This document shows, in pieces, positions 4,486-48,789 of a DNA stretch of 64,000 nt. The DNA is from Pelodictyon luteolum DSM 273 (GTDB lineage Bacteria; Bacteroidota; Chlorobiia; Chlorobiales; Chlorobiaceae). The notes below the pieces were generated by a model. That model saw only the letters and a program-made list of their open reading frames with translations. It ran no database searches and was not told the origin of the DNA. The stretch is from positions 1,365,001 to 1,429,000 of the forward strand of contig NC_007512.1 of NCBI RefSeq assembly GCF_000012485.1, written 5' to 3'. The translations under genes and the position numbers were made by a program. Each line of letters begins with the position of its first letter. Within the stretch, counting starts at the first letter, position 1.

Positions 4486-5019
4486 ATGAAACTGACCATG
4501 AAATCCTGGGCAACTCCAATCGCCGCCGGCGCCTTCCTGATCTCGGGAGTTACAGGAGTGCTGATTTTTTTCCATATTGAAACGGGGCTGGTCGAACCTG
4601 TCCACAAGTGGCTCAGCTGGCTGCTTGTGGGCGGCGTTTCCGTCCATCTCCTGGCAAACTGGAAAGCGTTCAGCCTGTACTTTTCAAAAAACTCAGCCCT
4701 TGCCGTATTTGCCGCGGCAATGCTCGTGACCGCTCTTTCAGTAATGCCGTTCTTTGGTGACGAAGAGCATGAGAAAACAGAAAAAAGGACCGCCCGAAGT
4801 CTGGTGCGCGCTCTTGAGTCCTCTTCGCTCACTACCGTGGCGCTGGTCGTCAACGATACCCCTGAAACTCTCGACATGCGCCTCAAGAGGCGGGGCATCA
4901 AGGATACCGACCCATCTATGACCGTAAGCGCCATTGCTGATGCAAGCGGCATGGAAGCCGGTGACGTGCTGGCAATCCTCGTCGGAGGGAAAAACGGACA
5001 CGAAAAAGGCAACGACTGA
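4486..5019 (+). CDS. DUF4405-type inner-membrane protein
   Basis: The product has 177 residues. Three hydrophobic segments fill the first half (about 10-29, 42-58 and 68-85), with conserved-looking histidines in FFHIETG, EPVHKWLSW and SVHLLANW that could bind haem, as proposed for DUF4405/cytochrome b561-like proteins. The C-terminal half is soluble (VALVVNDTPETLDMRLKRRG, SAIADASGMEAGDVLAILVG) and resembles the small helical domain found after DUF4405. It sits 10 bp before the response regulator and so is probably co-transcribed with the sensor pair. A role in envelope redox or stress sensing is only inferred from this context. Confidence 0.65.
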   Translation: MKLTMKSWATPIAAGAFLISGVTGVLIFFHIETGLVEPVHKWLSWLLVGGVSVHLLANWKAFSLYFSKNSALAVFAAAMLVTALSVMPFFGDEEHEKTEKRTARSLVRALESSSLTTVALVVNDTPETLDMRLKRRGIKDTDPSMTVSAIADASGMEAGDVLAILVGGKNGHEKGND

Positions 5020-5029
5020 ACAGGAACCC

Positions 5030-5728
5030 ATGCGACTGCTGATCATTGAAGACGAACCGGGAATAGCCCGCTTTCTCAAGGAGGGTCTTGAAGAGGAGCA
5101 CTTTGCCGTCGACACGGCCTTCGACGGAGAAAGCGGGCTTGAGCTCGGCATGAGCAACGATTACGACCTCTGCCTGATAGACTGGATGCTGCCGAAACTG
5201 AGCGGCATCGAAGTCTGCCGCCAGCTCCGCAAAGCCGGTTCGGCAGTTCCGGTCATTTTCCTCACCGCCCGCGATACCCTCGACGACGTCGTCTTCGGCC
5301 TCGGGGCGGGTGCGGACGACTATGTAAAAAAACCGTTCGCATTCGAAGAACTCCTGGCCAGGATCCGCGCCCGCCTGCGACAGAACACACCAACCACGGG
5401 CCCGCTCACTGCAGGTGCACTTTGGCTCGATCCGGAAACACACCGGGCAGGGTGCAATCGGCATGATCTCACCCTTACACCCAAAGAGTTCGCCCTGCTT
5501 GAATACCTCCTGAGGAACCTTGACAGGGTCTGTACGAGAAGCCGCATCATCGAGCATGTCTGGGACATCCATTTTGATGCTGACACCTCAGTCATCGACG
5601 TCTATGTCAATTTTCTCCGCCGCAAACTCGAAGCCGCAGGATGCACGGGCCTCATCAAGACCGTCCGCGGGGTCGGCTATGTCATCCGAACACCTGAAGC
5701 AAACAACGAGGAGAAGAGTAACGAGTGA
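5030..5728 (+). CDS. OmpR/PhoB-family response regulator
   Basis: This is a 232-residue DNA-binding response regulator. The receiver starts MRLLIIEDEPGIARFLKEGL with the acidic pair ED, the phospho-acceptor Asp in LCLIDWMLPKLSG, the Thr in FLTARD and the Lys in DYVKKPFAFEELLARI. The winged-helix output domain follows (LTLTPKEFALLEYLLRN, SRIIEHVWDIHFDADTSVID, KLEAAGCTGLIKTVRGVGY). The ATG at 5030 was chosen because it starts the receiver exactly and has AGGA just upstream; the frame is open further upstream but encodes nothing receiver-like. Its stop overlaps the start of the sensor kinase. Its target is unknown; the neighbouring BOF and DUF4405 genes are the best candidates. Confidence 0.93.
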   Translation: MRLLIIEDEPGIARFLKEGLEEEHFAVDTAFDGESGLELGMSNDYDLCLIDWMLPKLSGIEVCRQLRKAGSAVPVIFLTARDTLDDVVFGLGAGADDYVKKPFAFEELLARIRARLRQNTPTTGPLTAGALWLDPETHRAGCNRHDLTLTPKEFALLEYLLRNLDRVCTRSRIIEHVWDIHFDADTSVIDVYVNFLRRKLEAAGCTGLIKTVRGVGYVIRTPEANNEEKSNE

Positions 5729-7143
5729 GTCTTCGGAACCGCATAGCGGTATACTACACCGCAGCCACAGCCGTGCTCATCGCACTGGTCTTCACCACGG
5801 TCTACCTGATGGTAGAGGGTGTGGTCTACCGGCACTTCGACCAGGAGCTGACGATGGCGGCCGCAAGGGTTGTGAGCATCACGGATGGACGCCTGAATGA
5901 CCGGCGCCCGATGGAAATGGAGGATTCTGACCGGGAAAAAGAGGACGATGAGCACCGCAAGCACCGCCGTGAACGCTTGAGGACGGAGTTCATACAGTAC
6001 TCCGCTGCCGATGGCACCCCCATCTCCCGCTCCGGCAATCTGGGACTGAACGCCCTTCAGGTAAAGACGGGCTCCACCGCTACCATCTACTTCAACACGA
6101 CGGTCGGCGGGCTTGCGGTCCGGCAGATCCAGCTCCCGGTTGAGGGTAACGGAGACCCTCAACCCAGATGGATCAGCGTGGCGCGTCCTCTCGGGGACGC
6201 CATCGCCATGCTCCTAGACCTCAGAAGTGTTCTCATGCTGTCGTTTCCAGCCATACTCATAACCCTCTTCGCCCTCACCCGCGCCATTGCAGCCAAAAGC
6301 ATCCGACCGGTCGAAGAAGCAATCATGGCAGCCGAAAACATCACCAGGGAACATTTCGAGCGCCGCATACCCCTGCCAGCGAACCGTGATGAGCTTTACC
6401 GGCTCTCTGCAACGTTCAACGCGCTCCTCGACCGCCTCCAGGAGGCATTCAACCGGGAAAAGCAGTTCACGGCAGACGCATCCCACGAACTGAAAACCCC
6501 ACTTTCTGCAGTGCAGGGCACCCTGGAGGTGCTCATCCGCCGTCCAAGGGAGCGGGAGCACTATGAAGAGCGCATCCGATTCTGTCTGCTGGAGCTGCAT
6601 CGCATGGCAGGCCTCATAGAGCAACTCCTCCTGCTTGCACGCCACGATGCCAGAGAGGTATCCGCCACCCTCCGCTCCATCGACATCAATGCACTCATCC
6701 GTGAGGTAGCTGAGCGACAGGAATCGCGCGCCGGAGAAAAGGAAATCACCATCCGGGTTCCAGAGGAGTCAAGCTTCATCGTAGCGGCTGATCGGGAAAT
6801 GCTCGGCATCATCCTTGACAATATCATCGCCAATGCTGTGAACTACTCCCCCCGGTCAAGAACGGTCACAATCAGAACCGGCACGGAAAACGGACTGCCG
6901 TTCTGCACCATCAGCGATATGGGGAAGGGCATCGAGGAAAGTAAGCTCGAGGCGGTGTTTGAGCGATTCTACCGGGTCGACGCGTCCAGAAGCATCGGTT
7001 CGGGAGGTTCGGGGCTAGGGCTCTCCATCGTCAAAAAACTGGCGGACCTGCAGGGAATAACGGTACGGGCGGAAAGCCGGCCTGGAGAAGGTGCCACGTT
7101 CCGACTGCTCTTCCCCTACCCTTCAGACAGTTCCAGCAGGTAG
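5725..7143 (+). CDS. Membrane sensor histidine kinase
   Basis: This is a 472-residue kinase that begins at a GTG overlapping the regulator's stop codon (GTGA). A first membrane helix lies at about 9-29, then a periplasmic region of about 130 residues with a very charged stretch (MEDSDREKEDDEHRKHRRER), a second helix at about 165-187 and a HAMP linker. The HisKA H-box is FTADASHELKTPLSAVQGTL (about 250), and the ATP-binding domain shows the N-box NIIANAVNYSP, DMGKGIEES and GSGGSGLGLSIVKKL. The charged, histidine-rich sensor loop could bind metal or a cationic ligand, but this is only a guess. The last 28 bp overlap the convergent gene that follows. Confidence 0.92.
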   Translation: MSLRNRIAVYYTAATAVLIALVFTTVYLMVEGVVYRHFDQELTMAAARVVSITDGRLNDRRPMEMEDSDREKEDDEHRKHRRERLRTEFIQYSAADGTPISRSGNLGLNALQVKTGSTATIYFNTTVGGLAVRQIQLPVEGNGDPQPRWISVARPLGDAIAMLLDLRSVLMLSFPAILITLFALTRAIAAKSIRPVEEAIMAAENITREHFERRIPLPANRDELYRLSATFNALLDRLQEAFNREKQFTADASHELKTPLSAVQGTLEVLIRRPREREHYEERIRFCLLELHRMAGLIEQLLLLARHDAREVSATLRSIDINALIREVAERQESRAGEKEITIRVPEESSFIVAADREMLGIILDNIIANAVNYSPRSRTVTIRTGTENGLPFCTISDMGKGIEESKLEAVFERFYRVDASRSIGSGGSGLGLSIVKKLADLQGITVRAESRPGEGATFRLLFPYPSDSSSR

Positions 7144-38284: not shown

Positions 38285-39016
38285 TCAGCAGAAATTGCTG
38301 GAAATGGAGCAGGAAATGACGGCGCACTCCCTGACATGGTCGAGGATCGAGAGGATCCCGGTATGGCTGATGATGTTCTGGTCGTTGACCGTCGACTTCA
38401 GCTTCTCCACAGCCTTGTCGTAAAGACCCTGGATCTCCTGCATCATGTCGAGGGTTTCGCGGGCATGCTTCGAGTTGCCGCTGACAAAGGCTTCAACCGC
38501 TTTCTTGATCATTTCAGCGGTGATGTCGCCCATTGGTTTCAGGCCGTATTCGTCCTTATGGAGCTCCTGCACATTCGAAAACTCGACAAACGGCGTCTTC
38601 TCGGCGATGTTGAGGGCAAACTGGGCCATTTTCTCCAGTTCCTGCAGGATCATGCGGGCATCGCGGACACCCTTCAGCTGGTCGGTATCGAGGGTCTGGA
38701 ACGCACTGTATGCAAGGGTGAGATACTCGACCTCGAACTTGCCCTTCTGGATATATTCTTCGTCGAACTTGAAGGCAGAGGCCGCCAGTTCGGTATTCTT
38801 CTTGGTTGAAGCCCTGATGCTGAGCATCAGGTTGTTTTCCACGTTCGAGGACAGCTTGGTGAGCTTCTGCTTGAGGGACTCAAGCTGCACGTGCACAGTA
38901 CCCTGGGGTTTGATGGAAAGACCGAACTTCTGGGGATCGATCTGAACGGTGAAGGCTTTCGGGGTTGCAGCAGTTTTCGGGGAATCACCGAAAAGTTTTC
39001 CTAACAGACTGGCCAT
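38285..39016 (-). CDS. PhoU-type protein, divergent second copy
   Basis: This 243-residue all-helical protein follows phoU in the phosphate cluster. After a 60-residue leader it shows two PhoU-like three-helix halves: LSSNVENNLMLSIRASTKKN, EVEYLTLAYSAFQTLDTDQL, and MGDITAEMIKKAVEAFVSGN with ILDHVRECAVISCSISSNFC at the end. The metal-binding ExxxD motifs of true PhoU (ERIGD and ERMAD) are not seen, although SILDHVREC occupies the final position. It ends in cysteine. A terminator separates it from phoU, so it may be under its own promoter. It may be a regulatory partner of PhoU or of an unlinked phosphate transporter. Confidence 0.7.
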   Translation of the reverse strand: MASLLGKLFGDSPKTAATPKAFTVQIDPQKFGLSIKPQGTVHVQLESLKQKLTKLSSNVENNLMLSIRASTKKNTELAASAFKFDEEYIQKGKFEVEYLTLAYSAFQTLDTDQLKGVRDARMILQELEKMAQFALNIAEKTPFVEFSNVQELHKDEYGLKPMGDITAEMIKKAVEAFVSGNSKHARETLDMMQEIQGLYDKAVEKLKSTVNDQNIISHTGILSILDHVRECAVISCSISSNFC

Positions 39017-39191: not shown

Positions 39192-39878
39192 TCAATCTTT
39201 CAGCGACTGGATCAGCTTTTCATAGGAGATGTCGCTGTGCCGGACGATCTCGCCCGTCACAAGGTAGGTGACCTCATGGGCGATACGGGTGGCATGGTCG
39301 GCCATGCGCTCGATGTAGCGGGAGATGCTGAGGAGCGAGATCAGCTGATCGACGTTCAGGGCAGGGTCTTTCATGAGGGTAGCGACCTTCTTGAAAACGG
39401 CACTGTGGATGCTGTCGATCTCTTCGTCAAGGGCGCAGACCTTGTCGGCAAGGAAACGGTCCTTGTTGATGAATGCCTCGATCGACTTGCGGGTCATGTC
39501 GGCGGCAAGGCGGCCCATGGAATCGAAATCGAACATGGCAAGCATGTCGGGCTTGATGTCCGGCATGCGCTCGATGATGTGGACGGCAAGGTCGCCGATG
39601 CGCTCGAGATCGTCGTTGATCTTCATGATGGTGACGATCGTGCGCAGGTCCCGGGCAACGGGCTGCTGGAGGGCAAGGAACGCCAGGCAGCGCTCTTCAA
39701 GCCCGACTTCGGCAAGATCGATCTCAAAGTCGATGCGCCGGATTTCGCGGGCCTGCTCTTCATCCTGGTTGCGTATCGCTGTAAGGGCGTCGTCGAAGTT
39801 CTGAAGGACCTTTTCCGAGAGATGGACAAGGACATCTGAAAGGTCCCTGATATGTTCGTGTACCGGTCTGTCTGACAT
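39192..39878 (-). CDS. phoU: Phosphate transport regulator PhoU
   Basis: This 228-residue helical protein has two PhoU repeats, each with the metal-cluster motif: NDDLERIGDLAVHIIERM (about 85-102) and ISRYIERMADHATRIAHEVT (about 187-206). Both the E-R-I-G-D and E-R-M-A-D motifs are intact. PhoU represses the PhoR-PhoB pathway and Pst uptake when phosphate is plentiful. It is the last gene of the pstCAB-phoU run, 18 bp after pstB, and ends at a strong terminator. Its length matches the family. Confidence 0.95.
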   Translation of the reverse strand: MSDRPVHEHIRDLSDVLVHLSEKVLQNFDDALTAIRNQDEEQAREIRRIDFEIDLAEVGLEERCLAFLALQQPVARDLRTIVTIMKINDDLERIGDLAVHIIERMPDIKPDMLAMFDFDSMGRLAADMTRKSIEAFINKDRFLADKVCALDEEIDSIHSAVFKKVATLMKDPALNVDQLISLLSISRYIERMADHATRIAHEVTYLVTGEIVRHSDISYEKLIQSLKD

Positions 39879-39896: not shown

Positions 39897-40724
39897 TTAG
39901 CTGAATCTTCCGGTGATGTAGTCCTCAGTCATCCTATCCCTCGGATTGGTGAAGAGCTGCGAGGTGCCGGCATGCTCGACCAGCGTGCCCTCATAGAAAA
40001 ACATGGTGTAGTCTGAAACACGCGAAGCCTGCTGCATGTTGTGGGTGACGATCATGATCGTATAGCTGCCGCGAAGCTCCTGGATGAGGTCCTCGATCTT
40101 GGCTGTGGCCTTGGGGTCGAGAGCAGAGGTCGGCTCGTCGAGCAGAAGGATTTCGGGCTCGACGGCCAGCGTACGGGCTACGCAGAGCCGCTGCTGCTGT
40201 CCACCGCTGAGGCCGAGGGCGTTGCGCTCAAGGCGGTCGCTCACCTCGTCCCAGAGTGCCGCCTTGCGGAGGCTCTTCTCGACGACTTCAGCCAGCTGCT
40301 TCTTGTCGTTCATGCCGTGCAGACGCGGGCCGTAGGCGATATTGTCAAAAATCGATTTCGGGAACGGGTTCGGCTTCTGGAACACCATGCCGATCTTCTT
40401 GCGAAGCAGCACCTCGTCGGTGAGCTTGCCGTAGATGTCCTCTCCATCAAAACGCAGGGTACCGGTCGTATGGCAGCTCGGAATAAGATCGTTCATACGG
40501 TTGATGGCACGCAGGAACGTGCTCTTTCCGCAGCCGCTCGGTCCGATGATGGCCGTCACATATTTCGAGAGGATATCGGCGTTGACCTTTTTGACGGCTT
40601 CGAAGTCACCGTAAAAGATCGAGAAGTCCTTGGCGACGACATGGGGCTTGCCTCCGCCGCTCACGCTTTTTCGTTCAGAAGGGATGTAGATGTCGCGCGT
40701 TGCGGTCTTTGCAGGGGTGTCCAT
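39897..40724 (-). CDS. pstB: Phosphate ABC transporter ATP-binding protein
   Basis: This 275-residue ATPase powers the PstSCAB high-affinity phosphate importer. Walker A is [20 protein letters not shown] (about 61-80), the Q-loop is [10 protein letters not shown], the ABC signature [18 protein letters not shown] and Walker [14 protein letters not shown], with the switch His in IVTHNMQQA. These [10 protein letters not shown] and [11 protein letters not shown] sequences are specific to PstB. The ATG at 40724 is preceded by AGGAG 6 nt away and was chosen; ATGs at 40757 and 40751 are in frame and would add up to 11 residues. It follows pstA and precedes phoU. Confidence 0.95.
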
Positions 40725-40763
40725 GGAGATCTCCTTTTCTTCCGCTGTCATTTGCATGGTTAA

Positions 40764-42110
40764 TCAGCCTTTTAATTTCTTGGATATGCGGGCTCTGAGC
40801 AGTACCGCCGAAAGGTTCAGAAGGAGCACGATGCTGACAAGGGCAAGCACCATGCCGTACTGCACGTGGCGGATTTCGGCCGCCGCCTCATGTTCGCTGG
40901 CAAGGTTGTAGATATTCCACGACAGCGCCGGGGTCGGTGATGAAAGCACATCGGCAATGCCGATGGCCGAACCTACACTTACCGCTGCGGTGAAGATGAT
41001 CGGAGCGGTTTCGCCGGCCGCCCTGCCGAGACTGATGACGCCGCCGGTGATGATGCCGGGAAGCGCTGCAGGCAGGATCACGGTAACGATGGTGTTCCAT
41101 TTTGTGGAACCCAGACCGAGCGAAGCTTCTTTATAGGTTTTCGGCACCGCCAGTATCGCCTCTTCAGCCGCCCTGATGATGGTCGGCAGGATCATGATGG
41201 CAAGGGTAAGTGCACCGGCAAGCACGCTTTTGGATTCCGATACGTTCAGGGTATTGATGAAGAAGGCCAGACCGAACAGACCGAACACGATGCTCGGTAC
41301 ACCGGCAAGGGTGCTGTTTGCACTGCGCAGCATGCTGGTGAAGACGCCGTCCTTGGCATACTCGGTGAAATAGATGGCCGCGACAACACCAAGCGGAAAG
41401 GCGAAAAGCATGGCGCCGATGGCGAGGAAAAAGGTACCCTGGATTTCAGGCCATATGCCGCCGAAGATGTGGGCATCTATCGATGAGTCGGTGAGGAACC
41501 CCCAGTAGAGGGTGAAGCGAGGAAGCAGCATCTTTTCAGCGTTTTTCTCGACAAAACCGAACATCGGGGCAAGTTTCGTCCCCTCAAACGACTCGGCCCG
41601 GCGGACGAAGTACTCCTTGGCCATAACGTCGGGATCTGAATAGTCCCACTTGGACTCATAGAGCAGGGCGTGGAGTTTCTCCTCGGCCTTCTCCCACCGG
41701 GTCTGACCGTAACGGAAACGGGTCAGGATGGCCGAATCATCGCCGGGCGGAGGACCGAGCAGGGTCTGGAGCGCGGTCTTGACCGGGCCGTACTGCATAC
41801 GGTACTCCCTGGCCTTTTCAGGATCCATACCCTCAAGCTCAAGCTCGAAATCCGCAAGCATCCGGTACGCCTGGTCCCGGTACACGGCAACTTCAGCGAT
41901 TTCGCGCTCGAGCTCTGCCCCGTCACCGCGGTGGAACTCGTTATAGAGGAGCTTGCGATGCTCGATCGTTCCCTTGAAGAACACGGCGCCGAGTCCGTTG
42001 TAGATGATCGGCGTGATGACAATCAGAAGCGCAAGGGCCATGACGACGATCGAACCAATCCCGAGAGCGGTGAACGAACGGTCCAGTATTTTCCTTGTTC
42101 CGAGATTCAT
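40764..42110 (-). CDS. pstA: Phosphate ABC transporter permease PstA with a large soluble insertion
   Basis: This 448-residue permease is well above the usual 280-300 residues of PstA. One span lies at about 18-40, then about 145 charged residues (KLLYNEFHRGDGAELEREIA, LELEGMDPEKAREYRMQYGP) before the core. The core starts GTFFLAIGAMLFAFPLGVVA, has PSIVFGLFGLAFFIN, and the EAA loop is EASLGLGSTKWNTIVTVILP, followed by GGVISLGRAAGETAPIIFTA. The last two motifs are diagnostic for PstA. The large loop would face the periplasm, given the topology of the first span. Starts 36 bp after pstC. Confidence 0.92.
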   Translation of the reverse strand: MNLGTRKILDRSFTALGIGSIVVMALALLIVITPIIYNGLGAVFFKGTIEHRKLLYNEFHRGDGAELEREIAEVAVYRDQAYRMLADFELELEGMDPEKAREYRMQYGPVKTALQTLLGPPPGDDSAILTRFRYGQTRWEKAEEKLHALLYESKWDYSDPDVMAKEYFVRRAESFEGTKLAPMFGFVEKNAEKMLLPRFTLYWGFLTDSSIDAHIFGGIWPEIQGTFFLAIGAMLFAFPLGVVAAIYFTEYAKDGVFTSMLRSANSTLAGVPSIVFGLFGLAFFINTLNVSESKSVLAGALTLAIMILPTIIRAAEEAILAVPKTYKEASLGLGSTKWNTIVTVILPAALPGIITGGVISLGRAAGETAPIIFTAAVSVGSAIGIADVLSSPTPALSWNIYNLASEHEAAAEIRHVQYGMVLALVSIVLLLNLSAVLLRARISKKLKG

Positions 42111-42146: not shown

Positions 42147-43310
42147 TTACTGACCCGAAAGAATCTTCCTCTGGCGGACGACGATGCGCTCGCTGATGAG
42201 GTTGCTTATGAAGCTGATGACGAGGAGCAGGAGGCCCATGGCGAACAGCACATGATAGCGGGCCGAACCGGTCACCTGGTCTGCTTCGCCCATATCACCG
42301 GCGATGGTGGCCGTCAGGGTACGGACCGCCTCGAGGTAGTTGTACCAGGGATCGGGGATATGCGAAGAGTTGCCGGAAGCCATCCACACCACCATGGTCT
42401 CGCCGAGCGAGCGCATGATGCCGAGAATGACGGCGGCAAGAATGCCGCTGCTTGCGGCGGGAAGCACTGTTTTGACGAGTGTTTCAGCCCGGGTGGCGCC
42501 AAGTGCGTAGCTTCCTTCGCGGAGCTCGCGACCTACCGACTGAAGGGAATCCTCCGCCACACTGACGATCGTCGGCAGCGCCATGAAGCTCAGGATGATG
42601 GAGACGTTGAGGGCGTTGGTGCCGGTGAGGATCTGCATGCCGTTGAGCTGCGAACCCACCACGTAGAGCACGAGAAAGGCGAGAAGGGTGAAGAGCACCT
42701 GAAGCATGGTTGCATAGCGCTTGCGGCGAACCGGTTCCTCAATACCGGCAGTCAGGAGGTCGGAACCAACGATGACGGCAAGCAGCAGGAACGGTCCTGC
42801 AAGGATCCACCATACCCACATGAGCATGGGTCCGCCGCTTGTCTGGAGCAGCGGAGCGAGGATCACGAGCGCAAAGAAACCGAATGCGACAGAAGGAATG
42901 GCCGCAAGCATCTCAATTACCGGCTTGGCGTACTGGCGGACCGAAAAAGGAAGGATGTCGCTGAGGCAGACCGCTGCGGCAATGCCCATCGGGACAGCGA
43001 GGAGGGCCGAGCCGAGGGTGACCATGCCGGTGCCGTAGATGATGGCAAGTGCGCCGAACTCGCCGGGATCTCCTGCAGGGTACCAGTTGCTGCTGGTGAA
43101 GAATTCAGCGAATCCTCTCTGCTGGAAATAGGGAACGGCATCGACGGCGACGAAATAGAAAATGAAGAGAACGACGATGGCGACAAACGAGGCAATGAGA
43201 AGCAGAATGGATTCTCCTGCAGTCCTGGCGGCTTTCTGCATTTTCCGCCTCCCTTCGCTGACAACGAACGCGCCTGAACGGTTGCTGTCTCTGTTCACGT
43301 CTCCACTCAT
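42147..43310 (-). CDS. pstC: Phosphate ABC transporter permease PstC
   Basis: This 387-residue permease has the six-span core plus an extra hydrophobic pair at about 155-225. The PstC marks are IIYGTGMVTLGSALLAVPMG, PSVAFGFFALVILAP, the EAA loop LREGSYALGATRAETLVKTV and GIMRSLGETMVVWMASGN. The long hydrophobic insert (WVWWILAGPFLLLAVIVGSD to LFTLLAFLVLYVVGSQL) makes the protein longer than the E. coli form (319). It heads the pstCAB-phoU run, with 213 bp upstream that contain a candidate PHO box pair. Confidence 0.93.
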   Translation of the reverse strand: MSGDVNRDSNRSGAFVVSEGRRKMQKAARTAGESILLLIASFVAIVVLFIFYFVAVDAVPYFQQRGFAEFFTSSNWYPAGDPGEFGALAIIYGTGMVTLGSALLAVPMGIAAAVCLSDILPFSVRQYAKPVIEMLAAIPSVAFGFFALVILAPLLQTSGGPMLMWVWWILAGPFLLLAVIVGSDLLTAGIEEPVRRKRYATMLQVLFTLLAFLVLYVVGSQLNGMQILTGTNALNVSIILSFMALPTIVSVAEDSLQSVGRELREGSYALGATRAETLVKTVLPAASSGILAAVILGIMRSLGETMVVWMASGNSSHIPDPWYNYLEAVRTLTATIAGDMGEADQVTGSARYHVLFAMGLLLLVISFISNLISERIVVRQRKILSGQ

Positions 43311-43523: not shown

Positions 43524-44336
43524 TCACTGGCTGATGAAGCCGAGTTCACTGATGATCCGCCGCCCGTCAGCAGTCGAGGGCAGTGCGAGAAACTGTTTGA
43601 TGCTACCCGTCGGCTGGCCGCTGGTATAGAAATAGAGCTTGCGCGACAGCTTGTAGGTACCGCTGCGGATGCTCGCGACGCTCGGCTTTACCCCATCGAC
43701 AGGAACCGCCCGGACTGAGGAGTCCAGAAATCCCATGCCGATGAACCCGATCGCAGAGGGTGTCGTCGACACACGGCTCTTCACGGCGCCGTTGCTGGCC
43801 TGGGACTCAGCCCTCGGCATGATAGGCACAGCCTTGCCGGTGACGAGCGTCTTGAACGACTCCTGGGTGCCGCTGTTCGACTCACGCTGGATCACCACGA
43901 TGCGGGAATTCGGTCCGCCGACCTCGCGCCAGTTGGTATAGCGTCCCTGATAGATCCCTGCGATCTGGGCCTTCGTAAGACCCCTGACAGGGTTCGAGGG
44001 ATGAACGACGATGGCAATGCCGTCAAGGGCGGCAACATGCGCTACCGGCTGAATACCTTTTTTCCTTGCAGCAGCGATTTCCTGTGTTTTCATATCACGC
44101 GACATGGCTGCAATGTCGCAGGCGCCGTTGATGAGGCTTTTGGCACCGTTGCCGCTCCCCGACTCGCTGACGGTGACCGGAACACCGTAGCGCTTCGTGA
44201 AATATGCCGCAAACGATTTCGCTATGGGTCCGACAGTCGTCGAACCATCAATCACAATCCCATTCCCTGCCGCAGACACCTCTGTGCCCATAAGCATCAG
44301 CGCCGCCAGCGCCAGCATCAACATCCTCTTCATCAT
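43524..44336 (-). CDS. pstS: PstS-type phosphate-binding protein, second copy
   Basis: From ATG 44336 the protein has 270 residues, with signal peptide MMKRMLMLALAALMLMGTEV then SAAG. The ligand-binding segments IVIDGSTTVGPIAKSFAAYF, VSESGSGNGAKSLINGACDI and QRESNSGTQESFKTLVTG are the phosphate-binding loops of PstS/PBP-like-2 proteins. It is about three-fifths identical to the protein at 44487. Differences cluster outside the pocket. It lies between the first pstS and pstC with a terminator on each side, suggesting independent control. A different affinity or a role as sensor is possible but unproven. Confidence 0.88.
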   Translation of the reverse strand: MMKRMLMLALAALMLMGTEVSAAGNGIVIDGSTTVGPIAKSFAAYFTKRYGVPVTVSESGSGNGAKSLINGACDIAAMSRDMKTQEIAAARKKGIQPVAHVAALDGIAIVVHPSNPVRGLTKAQIAGIYQGRYTNWREVGGPNSRIVVIQRESNSGTQESFKTLVTGKAVPIMPRAESQASNGAVKSRVSTTPSAIGFIGMGFLDSSVRAVPVDGVKPSVASIRSGTYKLSRKLYFYTSGQPTGSIKQFLALPSTADGRRIISELGFISQ

Positions 44337-44404
44337 ATGTTCCGGTTCAATTTGGTTCCCTCTGTGCAAGAAGAAGAAAGGTAGGAAAAAGAAGCCCCCC
44401 TTGA

Positions 44405-44443
44405 AATAAAAAAAGCCCCCCCGATGCAATGCACCGGGAGGGC
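44405..44443 (-). terminator. Intrinsic terminator after the first pstS
   Basis: On the minus strand the stem GCCCTCCCG / CGGGGGGGC (44415-44443, with a mismatch) is followed by TTTTTTTATT. It follows the first pstS by about 45 bp. Confidence 0.8.
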
Positions 44444-44486: not shown

Positions 44487-45302
44487 TTACTGGTTCACGA
44501 AACCAAGTTCGCTGATCATGCGCATGCCCTCGGGGGTCTGGTTGAGCTCGATGAACTGCTTCACAGCGCCCTTCGGCTGACCGTTGGTGTACATGAAGAG
44601 CGGGCGGGAGATCGGGTAGGTACCGTCCTTGACCGAAGCAACGGTAGGAGCCACACCCTCAACACTCACAGCCTTCACAGAACCATCAACAAAGCCGAGG
44701 CCGAGGAAGCCGATGGCTGCAGGGGTGGAGGCAACACGGCTCTTTACAGCACCGTTGCTGGCCTGGGTCTCTGCACGCTTGGAGATCGGAGCTGCCTTGC
44801 CCATGACGAGGCTCTTGAAGGTGTCCTGGGTACCGCTGTTCGATTCACGCTGGATCTTGACGATCTCGGCAGTCGGGCCGCCGACCTGGTTCCAGTTGGT
44901 GATCTTGCCGGAGTAGATGTCACGGATCTGCGTCTTGGTAAGGTTCTTCACACGGTTGCTCGGGTTCACAACAATAGCCATACCGTCAAGAGCGACAACG
45001 TGCTCAACAGGATTGACGCCCTTTGCCTTTGCAGCAGCAATCTCGTTGGTTTTCATTGCGCGGGACATGTTGGCGATATCGCAGGTGCTGTTGATGATGC
45101 TCTTGGCACCGTTGCCGGAACCGGATTCGCTGACGGTCACATCGGTACCGGTGGTACGGGTGAAGTATGCTGCGAAGGACTTGGCAATCGGGCCGACGGT
45201 GGTGGAGCCGTCCATGACGATCTTGCCGGCGGCAGAAGCGTCACCGGAAGCCATCATACCGAAAACAGCCGCACCCATAAGGATTTTGCTGAAGAGTTTC
45301 AT
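44487..45302 (-). CDS. pstS: PstS phosphate-binding protein, first copy
   Basis: This is a 271-residue periplasmic phosphate-binding protein with signal peptide MKLFSKILMGAAVFGMMASG then DASAAG. The phosphate pocket loops are IVMDGSTTVGPIAKSFAAYF, VSESGSGNGAKSIINSTCDI and QRESNSGTQDTFKSLVMGKA. It is encoded just downstream of the porin and is followed by a second pstS and then pstCAB-phoU. As the component needed in the largest amount, separate termination after this gene fits the usual pattern. No clear ribosome binding site precedes the ATG. Confidence 0.93.
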   Translation of the reverse strand: MKLFSKILMGAAVFGMMASGDASAAGKIVMDGSTTVGPIAKSFAAYFTRTTGTDVTVSESGSGNGAKSIINSTCDIANMSRAMKTNEIAAAKAKGVNPVEHVVALDGMAIVVNPSNRVKNLTKTQIRDIYSGKITNWNQVGGPTAEIVKIQRESNSGTQDTFKSLVMGKAAPISKRAETQASNGAVKSRVASTPAAIGFLGLGFVDGSVKAVSVEGVAPTVASVKDGTYPISRPLFMYTNGQPKGAVKQFIELNQTPEGMRMISELGFVNQ

Positions 45303-45494: not shown

Positions 45495-46574
45495 TTAGAA
45501 CTTCACGACAGCGTCAAGCTGGAAGAGGTGCTTTGTATCATCAACCTGAGCAGCTGTACCATCAATCTTATTGAAGTTAAAGTACGTTGCACCAAGCGTC
45601 ATATTCTGGATGAGCTGGTATGTGCTGCTAATTTTGAAGCCTTCACAGTTTGTCCCACCACCATTACGATCACTGTCAGTCATGGCTGGATTTACCGCGT
45701 CCTCCTCAAGCTGTACATACTCAACCGATCCTTCAATCTGACCGGGATTCTTTGCCTTACCAAGCTTTAAGCCGACAAGCATACCATCCCTACGCGAATC
45801 TGTAATGCCACTGAAATCGCTATTTTCAGCCATATTAGTAGCAAACTGACCGTAGACCTTCCAGGGTAGGGAAGACACCTTGCCTCCGACACTTCCAAAA
45901 AGCTCGATAATATCATATCCGAGTGATGGATCGGGCATATTATCGTAGCCATAGTAAGAGGCTCCGAGCTGATAGCCTAAATTGCTGACTTCACCCTTGT
46001 AGGATGCCTGTGCGGCCAGAATGTAGGTATCATCGCCAACGGAAGATTCATCATAGAAATATGAACCAGCGACGAGTGAAAGACCATCCTTCTCTTTTCC
46101 TTTGGCATCTTTCCCATACTGCACAGTCGCTCCCTCAATTGTAACGTCGCCGTCCCAGATGAGATCGTCTATAACCGCAAGAGTGCTCTTAGTTGCCCTC
46201 TTACCAAGAATCAAGTTGACATCACCATTGAGGAACATCGGATGATAATCGATATATGCCTCATTCAATAAGATGGTGTCCGCAGCAAAACTGTCATCTA
46301 GAGTCTCGTTCCTTGAAACCGGATCTGTGTCGTTTCCAGTAGCGAGCTGCAACCCAGCAGATAGCTCCTCGTTAATCCACATGTCGGTTCCAAAACGGAC
46401 ACGAATACGGTGGCGGTCACGGCTATTATCATCAGTCGTGCTGACATTATCATCAGTCAAACTAGACTCATAACGATAGCGGATATCCCCTTTCCAGTTC
46501 CAGTCTACTGCCTGGGCGTTGCTCGAGAACCCGAGAACGGCAGCCAGACCGATTAACATTGCTGTTTTTTTCAT
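45495..46574 (-). CDS. Putative outer-membrane porin of the phosphate cluster
   Basis: This 359-residue protein has signal peptide MKKTAMLIGLAAVLGFSSNA then QAVDWNWKGDIRYRYESS, alternating polar/hydrophobic beta-strands rich in Tyr, Gly and Asp, and a C-terminal phenylalanine (LDAVVKF), as in trimeric porins. It does not clearly match OprP/OprO by eye, but its place upstream of pstS, with a PHO-box-like array before it, suggests it lets phosphate through the outer membrane. Its GC content is lower than its neighbours' (42% by my count at 46441-46500), which may indicate acquisition from elsewhere or selection on surface protein codons. Confidence 0.75.
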   Translation of the reverse strand: MKKTAMLIGLAAVLGFSSNAQAVDWNWKGDIRYRYESSLTDDNVSTTDDNSRDRHRIRVRFGTDMWINEELSAGLQLATGNDTDPVSRNETLDDSFAADTILLNEAYIDYHPMFLNGDVNLILGKRATKSTLAVIDDLIWDGDVTIEGATVQYGKDAKGKEKDGLSLVAGSYFYDESSVGDDTYILAAQASYKGEVSNLGYQLGASYYGYDNMPDPSLGYDIIELFGSVGGKVSSLPWKVYGQFATNMAENSDFSGITDSRRDGMLVGLKLGKAKNPGQIEGSVEYVQLEEDAVNPAMTDSDRNGGGTNCEGFKISSTYQLIQNMTLGATYFNFNKIDGTAAQVDDTKHLFQLDAVVKF

Positions 46575-46650
46575 GATATGGTTTGGTTGGTTTGCGTAAT
46601 GTGTTGCATGATTGATTCTTTTTTCATGCGCTGATAATCTAGGCCTCCAG

Positions 46651-46690
46651 TGTTACAGGACTGTTAAGGCTTTGTAAAGAGATTGTTAAC
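46651..46690 (-). promoter_or_regulatory. PHO-box-like array of four 11-bp repeats upstream of the porin
   Basis: On the plus strand TGTTACA (46651), TGTTAAG (46662), TGTAAAG (46673) and TGTTAAC (46684) are spaced exactly 11 bp, start to start. Read in the direction of the porin gene they are GTTAACA, CTTTACA, CTTAACA and TGTAACA. PhoB- and PhoP-type regulators bind such 11-bp direct repeats. The array lies 77 bp upstream of the porin start codon, a suitable place for an activator. No similarly perfect array was found elsewhere in the window. Confidence 0.75.
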
Positions 46691-46700
46691 TGAGTCTTCA

Positions 46701-46961
46701 TCATATCTTCAAATCAGTGATCACCACCGCCCCGTGGAAGCGGCGATCAGGGAAAATGACCCGCCCTTTCTGGTTGATGACGACATGGGGATATCCCGCT
46801 TCGTCAAGCAGCGCAAGGATTTTAGCAAGATCCTTTCGACCGGCGGGCTTGATGATGATGTCAGCCAGGGCATCGACTTTCTTTACACTGTGGCGGGAGA
46901 GTTCCTCCCGGAGAAAGAACTCGCCCGCCACCGCTGTTTTCAGCGCTTCAAGGTTCAACAT
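46701..46961 (-). CDS. Small protein resembling half of an FAD-binding (MurB-like) domain
   Basis: This 86-residue protein starts at ATG 46961 with a near-perfect ribosome binding site (AAGGAGG, 6 nt). IIIKPAGRKDLAKILALLDE, HVVINQKGRVIFPDRRFHGA and VVITDLKI run in the order of the first part of a MurB/GlcD-type FAD-binding domain (VxPxxxxDL, LGGGSNxL, GxVI). The glycine-rich loop is replaced by INQKGRVIF, so FAD pyrophosphate binding is unlikely. It is the last gene after plsC and the GNAT gene on the same strand, 72 bp away. It could be a regulatory or adaptor protein or a relic still translated. Confidence 0.55.
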   Translation of the reverse strand: MLNLEALKTAVAGEFFLREELSRHSVKKVDALADIIIKPAGRKDLAKILALLDEAGYPHVVINQKGRVIFPDRRFHGAVVITDLKI

Positions 46962-47033
46962 GGTATCCTCCTTCCTGCGGCTTCACGAAAAAACTGCAGA
47001 GCTCCTTACCTGCAGCCCGGCGCCTTAGGGCGC

Positions 47034-47726
47034 CTACCCCCCTGCTATCGGCCGGCGGCCGAGAAGGGCCTGACGGGCGGCCTTCCGCTGTTCCTTGCGC
47101 TCAATGACCGCATGAATGCCCTCGCTGAGCTCCATATAGATGCGGTTGCGGCTGTTCTTGATGCGGCGAAAGAGTTTCAGGATGTCGAGCGTAAGGATGA
47201 TGCGGGTGGAGCTGCAGTTCAAGTCACCAAACAGGTGTTTGCCCACCACCTCGAACCCGAGCACGCGGGTATGGAAGTTGAAGGGAGAGTTGGCCTCCCC
47301 TTCGAAGACGTCAGTAATGAAATGGGTATAGTCGCGCTCGACCACTTCGGCAGTTGCGGCGCGCATAAGACGCAGCGCAATACGGGGGTTGCGGCGGTAC
47401 TCGCCAAGAATCATGAACCGGCCGATTTCAGCGTAGCGTCCTGCGGTCCTGAGCTTTTCGACATCTATCCCCGGCTCGAACTTCACTTCGTACCGTTCGG
47501 GCAGTTCAAGCGGCGGATCGTAGAGGAGGCGGATGACGCCGGCAGGCTTTCCGCTGACCTCGGCAATGAACCAGGACAGGGTATCGCTTTTGAGAACATC
47601 CTCGGGGATCTGCCCTTCGACGCCCGCTATCCAGTTCTTCTCTATGCGGAAGACCTGCTCAATGACCTCGAGCACCCGGCTGCGGTCACAGGCGCTCTCC
47701 ACTCTCCTGACGGTAACACTCGACAT
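47034..47726 (-). CDS. GNAT acyltransferase of the FeeM/OlsB/AHL-synthase-like kind
   Basis: This 230-residue protein starts at ATG 47726 with GGGAGG 7 nt before it. RVLEVIEQVFRIEKNWIAGV, SWFIAEVSGKPAGVIRLLYD, GRYAEIGRFMILGEYRRNPR, IALRLMRAATAEVVERDYTH and FHTRVLGFEVVGKHLFGDLN follow the fold of long-chain N-acyl amino acid synthases (FeeM) and related acyl-homoserine lactone or ornithine-lipid acyltransferases. These move an acyl group from acyl-ACP to an amine. It stands directly after a PlsC-type acyltransferase on the same strand (15 bp), as OlsB/OlsA pairs do. The amine acceptor is unknown; no LuxR-type signal receptor with an AHL domain is present. Confidence 0.65.
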   Translation of the reverse strand: MSSVTVRRVESACDRSRVLEVIEQVFRIEKNWIAGVEGQIPEDVLKSDTLSWFIAEVSGKPAGVIRLLYDPPLELPERYEVKFEPGIDVEKLRTAGRYAEIGRFMILGEYRRNPRIALRLMRAATAEVVERDYTHFITDVFEGEANSPFNFHTRVLGFEVVGKHLFGDLNCSSTRIILTLDILKLFRRIKNSRNRIYMELSEGIHAVIERKEQRKAARQALLGRRPIAGG

Positions 47727-47741
47727 GGCGGTCCTCCCGGT

Positions 47742-48569
47742 TTACAGGGCACCCTCCCCGACCGCAAACGGCGGACGGGATACGGACCCGTATGGTTGTT
47801 GGTAAAGTGCATGATGTTCGTTCGGCATGGGTCCCTGATAGCGTTTGCCTGACAGGTCTGCAAGGCAGTGCATGACCCTGTGGGTCACTTCATTTGCCAG
47901 TGCGGCACGCCGCTGCACACCGCCCTGTTCCTCTTTCTTGACGGCACGGTAGGCTTCCGACTGCAGGGTGAAGTCGATCGGGGTGCCCACCCGTATGATG
48001 GTGCGCCCGAGGATGGGGATGCGTCCCTTCTGTATGCGGAGCGGGAAGTCGATGCCGACAGGGATTACCGGGGCACCGGTCGTGAGGGCAATGTGGCCGA
48101 TACCGCTCTTGCCTTTGGCCAGGGCATCGGCATTGCGGTTGCGCCGCCCTTCGGGGAAAATGCCGATGCTCCTGCCGGAAGCGATCTTGCGGCAGCAGCG
48201 CTCGACGGTATCTTCCGCCATCCGGACCGGCCGTGAGGATTCTATCCAGGAGAGGGTGGAGCGCTTGTTATAGACATAGACGGGATCGATCATCCCCATC
48301 AGCTTGCCGAGTACCGGCACCCTGCCGTACATCCAGTCGATGACGAAGCTGATTGTGCGCCCGCCCATGTGGTAGATGAAAAAGATCGGGACCATCAACG
48401 CTTCAGCAGAATTGTTGTGGTTGAAGGCGAAAATGTATGGCCGTCCGTCACCGGGGAGGTTCCCGAGCCCTTCCGCCTTCAAAAGGAAGAAGTTCGGAAG
48501 CATCAGGAGCCGGAGGAGCAGCGCCCGCATCGGGGAGAGCCGGGGAAGCGGCCTGAAGTAGTCTTTCAT
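47742..48569 (-). CDS. PlsC-type 1-acylglycerol-3-phosphate acyltransferase-like protein
   Basis: This 275-residue acyltransferase has a hydrophobic N-terminal part and the LPLAT motifs: IFAFNHNNSAEALMVP (motif I), RVPVLGKLMGMIDPVYVYNK (motif II region), GRSIGIFPEGRRNRNADAL (motif III) and GAPVIPVGIDFP (motif IV). Motif I is H-x4-E instead of the usual H-x4-D; the acidic residue that pairs with the catalytic His is thus Glu, or it lies elsewhere. FPEGRR is intact. Its coupling with the GNAT gene suggests an O-acylation of an N-acyl amine rather than phosphatidic acid synthesis, as OlsA does. Confidence 0.75.
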   Translation of the reverse strand: MKDYFRPLPRLSPMRALLLRLLMLPNFFLLKAEGLGNLPGDGRPYIFAFNHNNSAEALMVPIFFIYHMGGRTISFVIDWMYGRVPVLGKLMGMIDPVYVYNKRSTLSWIESSRPVRMAEDTVERCCRKIASGRSIGIFPEGRRNRNADALAKGKSGIGHIALTTGAPVIPVGIDFPLRIQKGRIPILGRTIIRVGTPIDFTLQSEAYRAVKKEEQGGVQRRAALANEVTHRVMHCLADLSGKRYQGPMPNEHHALYQQPYGSVSRPPFAVGEGAL

Positions 48570-48789
48570 ACGCAGTAAGCCTTATTGGCTGAGCCGCCAA
48601 GAAGCGGCAGGGGTTTTCAGGGTACAGAAGAAAGAACGTCTTTATGTGTTGACGAACAGTTACGGGGGTGCAACGATTCTGCAAATTTGAAGAGGGTGCG
48701 GGAAGGGCCGGAGGAGGGAAATTGAAACAAATAATGCATCGGGGCTGTTTTAAGCTTTGTGCAGATAAACGATTTTTTATTTTCCCCCT
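48570..48789. other. Divergent spacer before the methyltransferase gene
   Basis: This 220-bp spacer separates the PlsC-type gene and the methyltransferase. A TTGACG-like sequence lies near 48648 and an AT-rich run near 48765-48785. No coding or repeat structure was recognised. Confidence 0.35.

Follow-up and report, generated by a model that had tools for sequence, protein, structure and literature searches.

What reads a short array of direct repeats ahead of the porin and phosphate-transport genes of a green sulfur bacterium, and which genes does it control? The array lies in Pelodictyon luteolum DSM 273, within a 64,000-nucleotide stretch of DNA (NC_007512.1, positions 1,365,001 to 1,429,000) that was analysed as a whole and is called the window here. 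A sequence-only reading had described four PHO-box-like units at an exact 11-bp period in front of a porin followed by pstS-pstS-pstCAB-phoU, and both statements are borne out. TGTTACA, TGTTAAG, TGTAAAG and TGTTAAC begin at 46651, 46662, 46673 and 46684 (window bases 46651-46690), and the genes follow in the order porin, pstS, pstS, pstC, pstA, pstB, phoU and a second PhoU-like gene, all on the minus strand, with pstA and pstB placed by open reading frame and order (Table 1). The orientation had to be revised: units of the TGTTAAG type are present, but the porin is encoded on the minus strand and TGTTAAG is the word on the other one. Read in the sense of the porin, the array is TTAACA-N5-TTTACA-N5-TTAACA-N5-GTAACA, that is TTAACAATCTC TTTACAAAGCC TTAACAGTCCT GTAACACTGGA, followed by GGCC and then by TAGATT. 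A plus-strand open reading frame at 46683-47852 was rejected as a target of the switch, being a mechanical reading frame that overlies minus-strand genes. From sequence and conservation we infer, with a probability of roughly 88%, that the array constitutes a Pho box of four units, bound over the -35 position by a PhoB-type activator that would drive the porin-pst operon, and that a second box would control the neighbouring acyltransferase operon.

Table 1. Features of the phosphate locus, in window coordinates (R1 is the motif model described in the text)
Feature	Position	Strand	Basis
Second PhoU-like gene	38285..39016	-	TIGR02135 61.7 bits, under cut-off
phoU	39192..39878	-	TIGR02135 195 bits, cut-off 130.25
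pstB ATPase	39897..40757	-	ORF and conserved order only
pstA permease	40764..42110	-	ORF and conserved order only
pstC permease	42147..43310	-	PF00528 E 2.3e-14 and position
pstS2	43524..44429	-	PF12849 E 4e-44
pstS1, phosphate-binding protein	44487..45302	-	TIGR02136 285 bits, cut-off 206.6
Outer-membrane porin (Porin_5), first gene after box	45495..46574	-	PF16930 E 1.3e-32; AlphaFold pLDDT 86.6, general-porin fold
-10-like element TAGATT	46636..46641	-	9 bp past last unit; TAnnTT conserved in aligned loci
Predicted Pho box, porin-pst operon	46651..46689	-	TTAACA 46689-46684, TTTACA 46678-46673, TTAACA 46667-46662, GTAACA 46656-46651; period 11 bp
86-aa protein between GNAT gene and porin box	46701..46961	-	No Pfam match; NCBIfam 27.1 of 259 bits, weak
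GNAT, FeeM-like N-acyltransferase, candidate aminolipid synthase	47034..47726	-	Acetyltransf_1 above cut-off; FeeM 24.3 bits, cut-off 27
PlsC-like O-acyltransferase, first gene after second box	47742..48569	-	PF01553 E 4.7e-16; TIGR00530 40.2 bits, under cut-off
Second, weaker predicted Pho box	48642..48685	-	TTTGCA, GTTGCA, GTAACT, TCAACA at 11-bp spacing; R1 E 2.6e-4 (G000:C1:1413637-1413687)

The array is unique in the genome as an exact match only; relaxed patterns also match controls. Four TGTNA-N6 units occur once in the window without mismatch and, with up to two mismatches, as two overlapping matches, both at the array, against 0.03 expected in shuffled sequence. Over the 2,364,842-bp genome, four TGTWA units match at the array alone, and allowing two mismatches gave two overlapping matches, compared with one for a reversed control pattern. 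Three TTNACA units have a single exact match genome-wide, which is the array, while at up to two mismatches four matches (three of them at the array) stand against three for the control. As for the first gene behind the array, its predicted structure resembles OmpM1 most closely, then MOMP, OmpF and others among the best 50 of 861 fold matches. A phosphate-selective porin of the OprP/OprO type was rejected, as neither protein is among these best 50 and the Pfam family is Porin_5.

Conservation upstream of orthologous porin genes had been chosen beforehand as the point on which the proposal could fail. The porin has a match in 38 of 41 genomes of the window's family, taken to be the Chlorobiaceae, and the array precedes porin and then pstS in all 30 porin loci retrieved, two of which (L010, L011) were inspected separately; a motif model, introduced below, matches 41/41 family genomes. 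Because the array was located in each locus as the TTWACA fit that scored best over about 260 bp, it is register and -10 element, not score, that support the weakest cases, L031 and L032 (15 of 24). For the alignment we used 25 loci, leaving out two near-duplicates (L004, L012) and one locus out of phase (L025); L010 and L011 were absent from the set. Per column, the array carries 1.18 bits of information, compared with 0.12 for the 34 columns upstream of it, 0.22 for the four that precede the -10 element and 0.58 for the 15 that follow this element. Among periods of 7 to 16 only 11 stands out, with 18.8 of 20 against 13.9-14.7 for the others (25 loci).

The element TAnnTT, itself a predicted -10, lies 9-10 bp past unit 4 in 25/25 aligned porin loci. 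Its full form TAnnTTTG, with the Bacteroidetes-type -7, is present in five of the 25 (L018, L019, L022, L030, L032); at this position the window reads TAGATTAT. As expected of a Pho box, the array consists of direct repeats, each some 6-7 bp long, that recur with an 11-bp period, deviating once in L025 (G008), where 12 bp separate units 1 and 2, and it spans the predicted -35 position about 10 bp before the predicted -10. The commonest units, TTTACA / TTT(A/G)CA / TTAACG / TCAACA, do not follow the E. coli-type CTGTCA consensus.

To follow the box beyond the porin loci, we used R1, a sequence-only model built on 29 of them, the E-values of which are rough. Its matches include 12 genomes outside the training set (G001, G005, G012, G013, G017, G019, G030, G031, G032, G035, G037, G040), among them G017, almost identical to the window. 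In 36/41 genomes the porin ortholog has the top match ahead of it, at a distance of at most 250 bp; in G005, G014 and G040 it precedes pstS, in G035 a Porin_4 gene followed by pstS, and in G012 it falls at a contig edge, with a second match preceding pstS. Across the phylum, R1 matches 70 of 296 genomes at E <=0.001, namely 65 of the window's family and 5 of 231 others. No family genome was found among the match-less genomes listed in that scan, in what seems to be an order by kinship, and ten listed genomes from other families of the order gave no R1 match. Three of the five matches outside the family (L150, L151, L152) adjoin a pstS-like gene, each with four TTAACA-like units: in L150 and L151 the box has a PstS-like gene on one side and a TonB receptor on the other (assigned by Pfam in L151, by likeness in L150), and in L152 it leads pstS, a gene for a 365-aa protein without Pfam match, pstC, pstA and pstB. 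For the other two, G191 and G206 (L153, L154), no site reached a weight-matrix score >=17 in the stretches fetched; these matches are unconvincing, and either unexplained or due to chance.

A second box in the window sits 72 bp before the ATG of the PlsC-like acyltransferase gene; no clear -10 was found for it. With a weight matrix derived from porin boxes only, a plsC match of 40% identity required and known duplicates dropped, this position beat 60 shuffles in 36 of 37 plsC loci (p <=0.033; minimum possible 0.016). The one failure was L176, and L166 was left out as an artefact, its operon lying at the edge of the stretch. Scores ranged from 2.8 to 31.5, L176 apart. In the control regions the same test succeeded in 0/23 cases for pstB, 5/23 for pstC and 8/23 for mtase, all scores for pstC and mtase being negative; the mtase region carries the plsC box on the opposite strand. 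Where the acyltransferase operon lies away from the porin (G011, G013, G027), the box is still ahead of it, with R1 E-values of 0.29, 0.0036 and 0.66 and a shuffle p of 0.016 each.

The second gene of this operon, a GNAT, is found in 32/41 genomes at E 1e-30; the nine genomes without it all have the porin/pst box, and three of these nine are <90% complete. One stop codon each was counted inside the GNAT matches G001:C1:407232-407894 (TGA) and G005:C68:1777-2436 (TAG). FeeM is matched by 23 of 27 relatives and Acetyltransf_5 by 5 of 27 (E 0.01). In the structural comparison (model pLDDT 68.3), the four top Foldseek matches are FeeM 2g0b at a TM-score of about 0.5, with other GNATs close behind; when solved structures were searched with a profile of the GNAT, nothing credible emerged. 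These likenesses suggest that the PlsC-like/FeeM-like operon probably makes a phosphorus-free acyl-amino-acid lipid under phosphate stress. In 24 loci the acyltransferase genes have the 86-aa protein of Table 1 as a conserved neighbour.

Among relatives, the box precedes phosphate genes across many genomes. Behind it we found pstS (L087, L088, L089, L090, L109, L111, L112, L113), phoU (L077, L085), TonB receptors (L074 and L162 by Pfam; L076, L080, L156, L160, L163 and L164 by likeness) and a TonB-plug protein (L075). An acid phosphatase (TIGR03397 666.9 bits, cut-off 362.75) follows a membrane protein behind the box in L159 and, by likeness, in L106, L165 and L168, and in L104 the membrane protein of such an operon was the only gene seen. 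Further box-led genes encode a metallophosphoesterase/phytase-like protein (L084), a PHP protein (L086), a NUDIX protein (L081, and as second gene in L167), an ABC permease (L161; by likeness L166) and a cold-shock-like protein (L158; by likeness L157 and L167); the sites in L081, L084 and L086 are weak, scoring 21.6, 19.9 and 19.3. At L106 +11775, a box-like site lies ahead of a gene for a leucine-rich-repeat-like protein, which, like the cold-shock-like genes, lacks an evident phosphate role.

In L102 (G035:C59), a Porin_4 gene replaces Porin_5 under a strong box and is followed by pstS-phoB-phoR, the promoter being kept and the porin swapped. The cold-shock-like gene of L157 and L158 (G173, G227), 70 aa long and divergent from phoB, has two boxes ahead of it, separated by about 146 bp, and in L099 (G021:C11, 838-1436) a box lies ahead of an arsenate-reductase-like gene (under cut-off), likewise divergent from phoB; a link between arsenate and phosphate is plausible there.

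The candidate for the protein that reads the box is encoded at C1:737346-738050, about 670 kb from pst. The best NCBIfam model for this regulator is PhoB (226.9 bits, under the cut-off of 296.2), and it has a counterpart in 41/41 genomes at 69-100% identity. For the adjoining kinase, of which a fragment was scanned as the locus ends inside it, PnpS is the best model, WalK the second and phoR_proteo the third, all under cut-off. A kinase stands beside the PhoB-like regulator in L034 and L102, with NCBIfam equivalog cut-offs not reached. In three genomes (G025, G035, G037) phoB-phoR comes after box, porin and pstS on the same strand, and phoB lies within about 5 kb of the box in twelve more loci (L081, L099, L104, L106, L157, L158, L159, L161, L165, L166, L167, L168), many of which were fetched because of the box. 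No box was found before phoB in the window's own genome, where R1 lists two sites, neither of them at phoB. The recognition-helix region reads RTIDTHVTRLREKL in the PhoB-like regulator and RTVDVHIRRLRKAL in E. coli PhoB, a difference that may explain TTRCA instead of TGTCA. A further OmpR-type regulator and kinase at window positions 4934-7143 (plus strand), the regulator having CopR-type and RppA as best models under cut-off, are not the candidate Pho pair.

Based on these data, several explanations can be weighed. The assignment to a PhoB/PhoP-type regulator made in the sequence-only reading is supported by the matches throughout the family and by the many phosphate genes behind the box. Motif shape alone, however, cannot separate PhoP/PhoB from WalR/YycF-type regulators, while context can. 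WalR/YycF recognizes TGTWAH-N5-TGTWAH, usually as two units and at cell-wall targets, unlike the Chlorobium array with its four units and phosphate-gene targets. It is conceivable, if unlikely, that another OmpR-family regulator of WalR/YycF type binds the array in response to envelope stress, with the porin as the envelope gene and pst as a passenger. WalK is after all the second-best model of the candidate kinase, and the genome has seven Trans_reg_C matches, of which those other than the PhoB-like regulator may also be candidates. YycF sites predicted in Staphylococcus epidermidis have the unit and spacing of the Chlorobium array and include TTAACA-N5-TTTACA before pstS (PMC5405149), a pair found in the array itself; since WalR/YycF-type proteins also use this unit, the target genes have to decide. 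In relatives many of these are phosphate genes, namely pstS, phoU, acid phosphatase and phytase-like genes, the box stands directly before pstS in L109 and L111, and the regulator pair follows box, porin and pstS in the three genomes named above, all of which argues against an envelope regulator. Taken as a whole, the box-led genes speak for phosphate more than for envelope stress.

It is very improbable that the array is a Pho-type operator whose main effect is to repress or tune the promoter instead of activating it. Pho-type regulators can also repress, but at E. coli Pho promoters the activator is usually positioned 9-10 bp before the -10, and here the last unit ends at just this distance from the -10-like element in every aligned locus, with the array covering the -35 position. 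It is scarcely credible that the repeats arose by chance or are neutral, even though relaxed patterns match controls too: the array is conserved where its upstream flank is not and recurs in the 12 genomes outside the training set and in 27 more genomes of the family from the phylum scan, and even where the acyltransferase operon lies away from the porin, a box still precedes it.

In the activator reading, the PhoR-like kinase (C1, about 738 kb) would phosphorylate the PhoB-like regulator at low phosphate. Regulator dimers would then line up in tandem on the TTNRCA units, along one helix face over the -35 position, and would recruit RNA polymerase for transcription of porin-pstS-pstS-pstCAB-phoU, with TAGATT predicting a start near 46629. 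The weaker second box would bring the PlsC-like/FeeM-like operon under the same control. Green sulfur bacteria very probably use the switch to turn on phosphate uptake at low phosphate, and perhaps also to turn on phosphorus-saving membrane lipids.

The array supplies a concrete, testable Pho-regulon signature for green sulfur bacteria, and the second box predicts a phosphorus-free lipid pathway that is switched on along with phosphate uptake. More tentatively, and with considerable doubt, the graded TTTRCA-to-TTAACR box with its TAnnTT(TG) promoter might represent a Pho switch ancestral to green sulfur bacteria and to related lineages in their phylum, and might in green sulfur bacteria also drive an undescribed FeeM-like/PlsC-like pathway replacing phospholipids by phosphorus-free acyl-amino-acid lipids. 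Pho switches of this kind are known elsewhere, and the green sulfur member appears to be new: a published Pho box of green sulfur bacteria was not found in the open-licence literature, which is weak evidence of absence. One study, in the text of which the word 'phob' does not occur, describes Pho genes of C. phaeoferrooxidans KB01, and competition of Chlorobium for phosphate serves it in an argument on early-Earth oxygenation (PMC6616575).

How, then, does the array relate to known systems? In the E. coli phoB promoter (NC_000913), the coding strand reads TTTTCATAAAT CTGTCATAAAT CTGACGCATAA. It has in common with the Chlorobium array direct repeats on the coding strand at an 11-bp period, and in its TTTTCA and CTGTCA, as in the Chlorobium units, positions 5-6 are CA. 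The likeness to CTGTCAT that had been proposed therefore holds on the coding strand, for TTTRCA against TTTTCA/CTGTCA in 11-bp phase, but not by way of TGTTAAG, which belongs to the other strand. The units themselves differ, with four of TTTRCA/TTAACR in Chlorobium compared to the CTGTCAT of the E. coli PhoB box, and the PhoB-like regulator is 39% identical to E. coli PhoB. The Bacillus subtilis PhoP box consists of four TTAACA-type units at about 11-bp spacing before the -10; compared with this form, the upstream units of the family tend to TTTRCA and the downstream ones to TTAACR/TCAACA. For the acyltransferase operon, the closest parallel drawn here is the OlsBA ornithine-lipid pathway, in which an N-acyltransferase works with a PlsC-like O-acyltransferase and which in Sinorhizobium is under PhoB. 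The Chlorobium operon contains the same pairing, with Pho control predicted in this case, but unlike OlsBA its N-acyltransferase is nearer to FeeM than to Acetyltransf_5.
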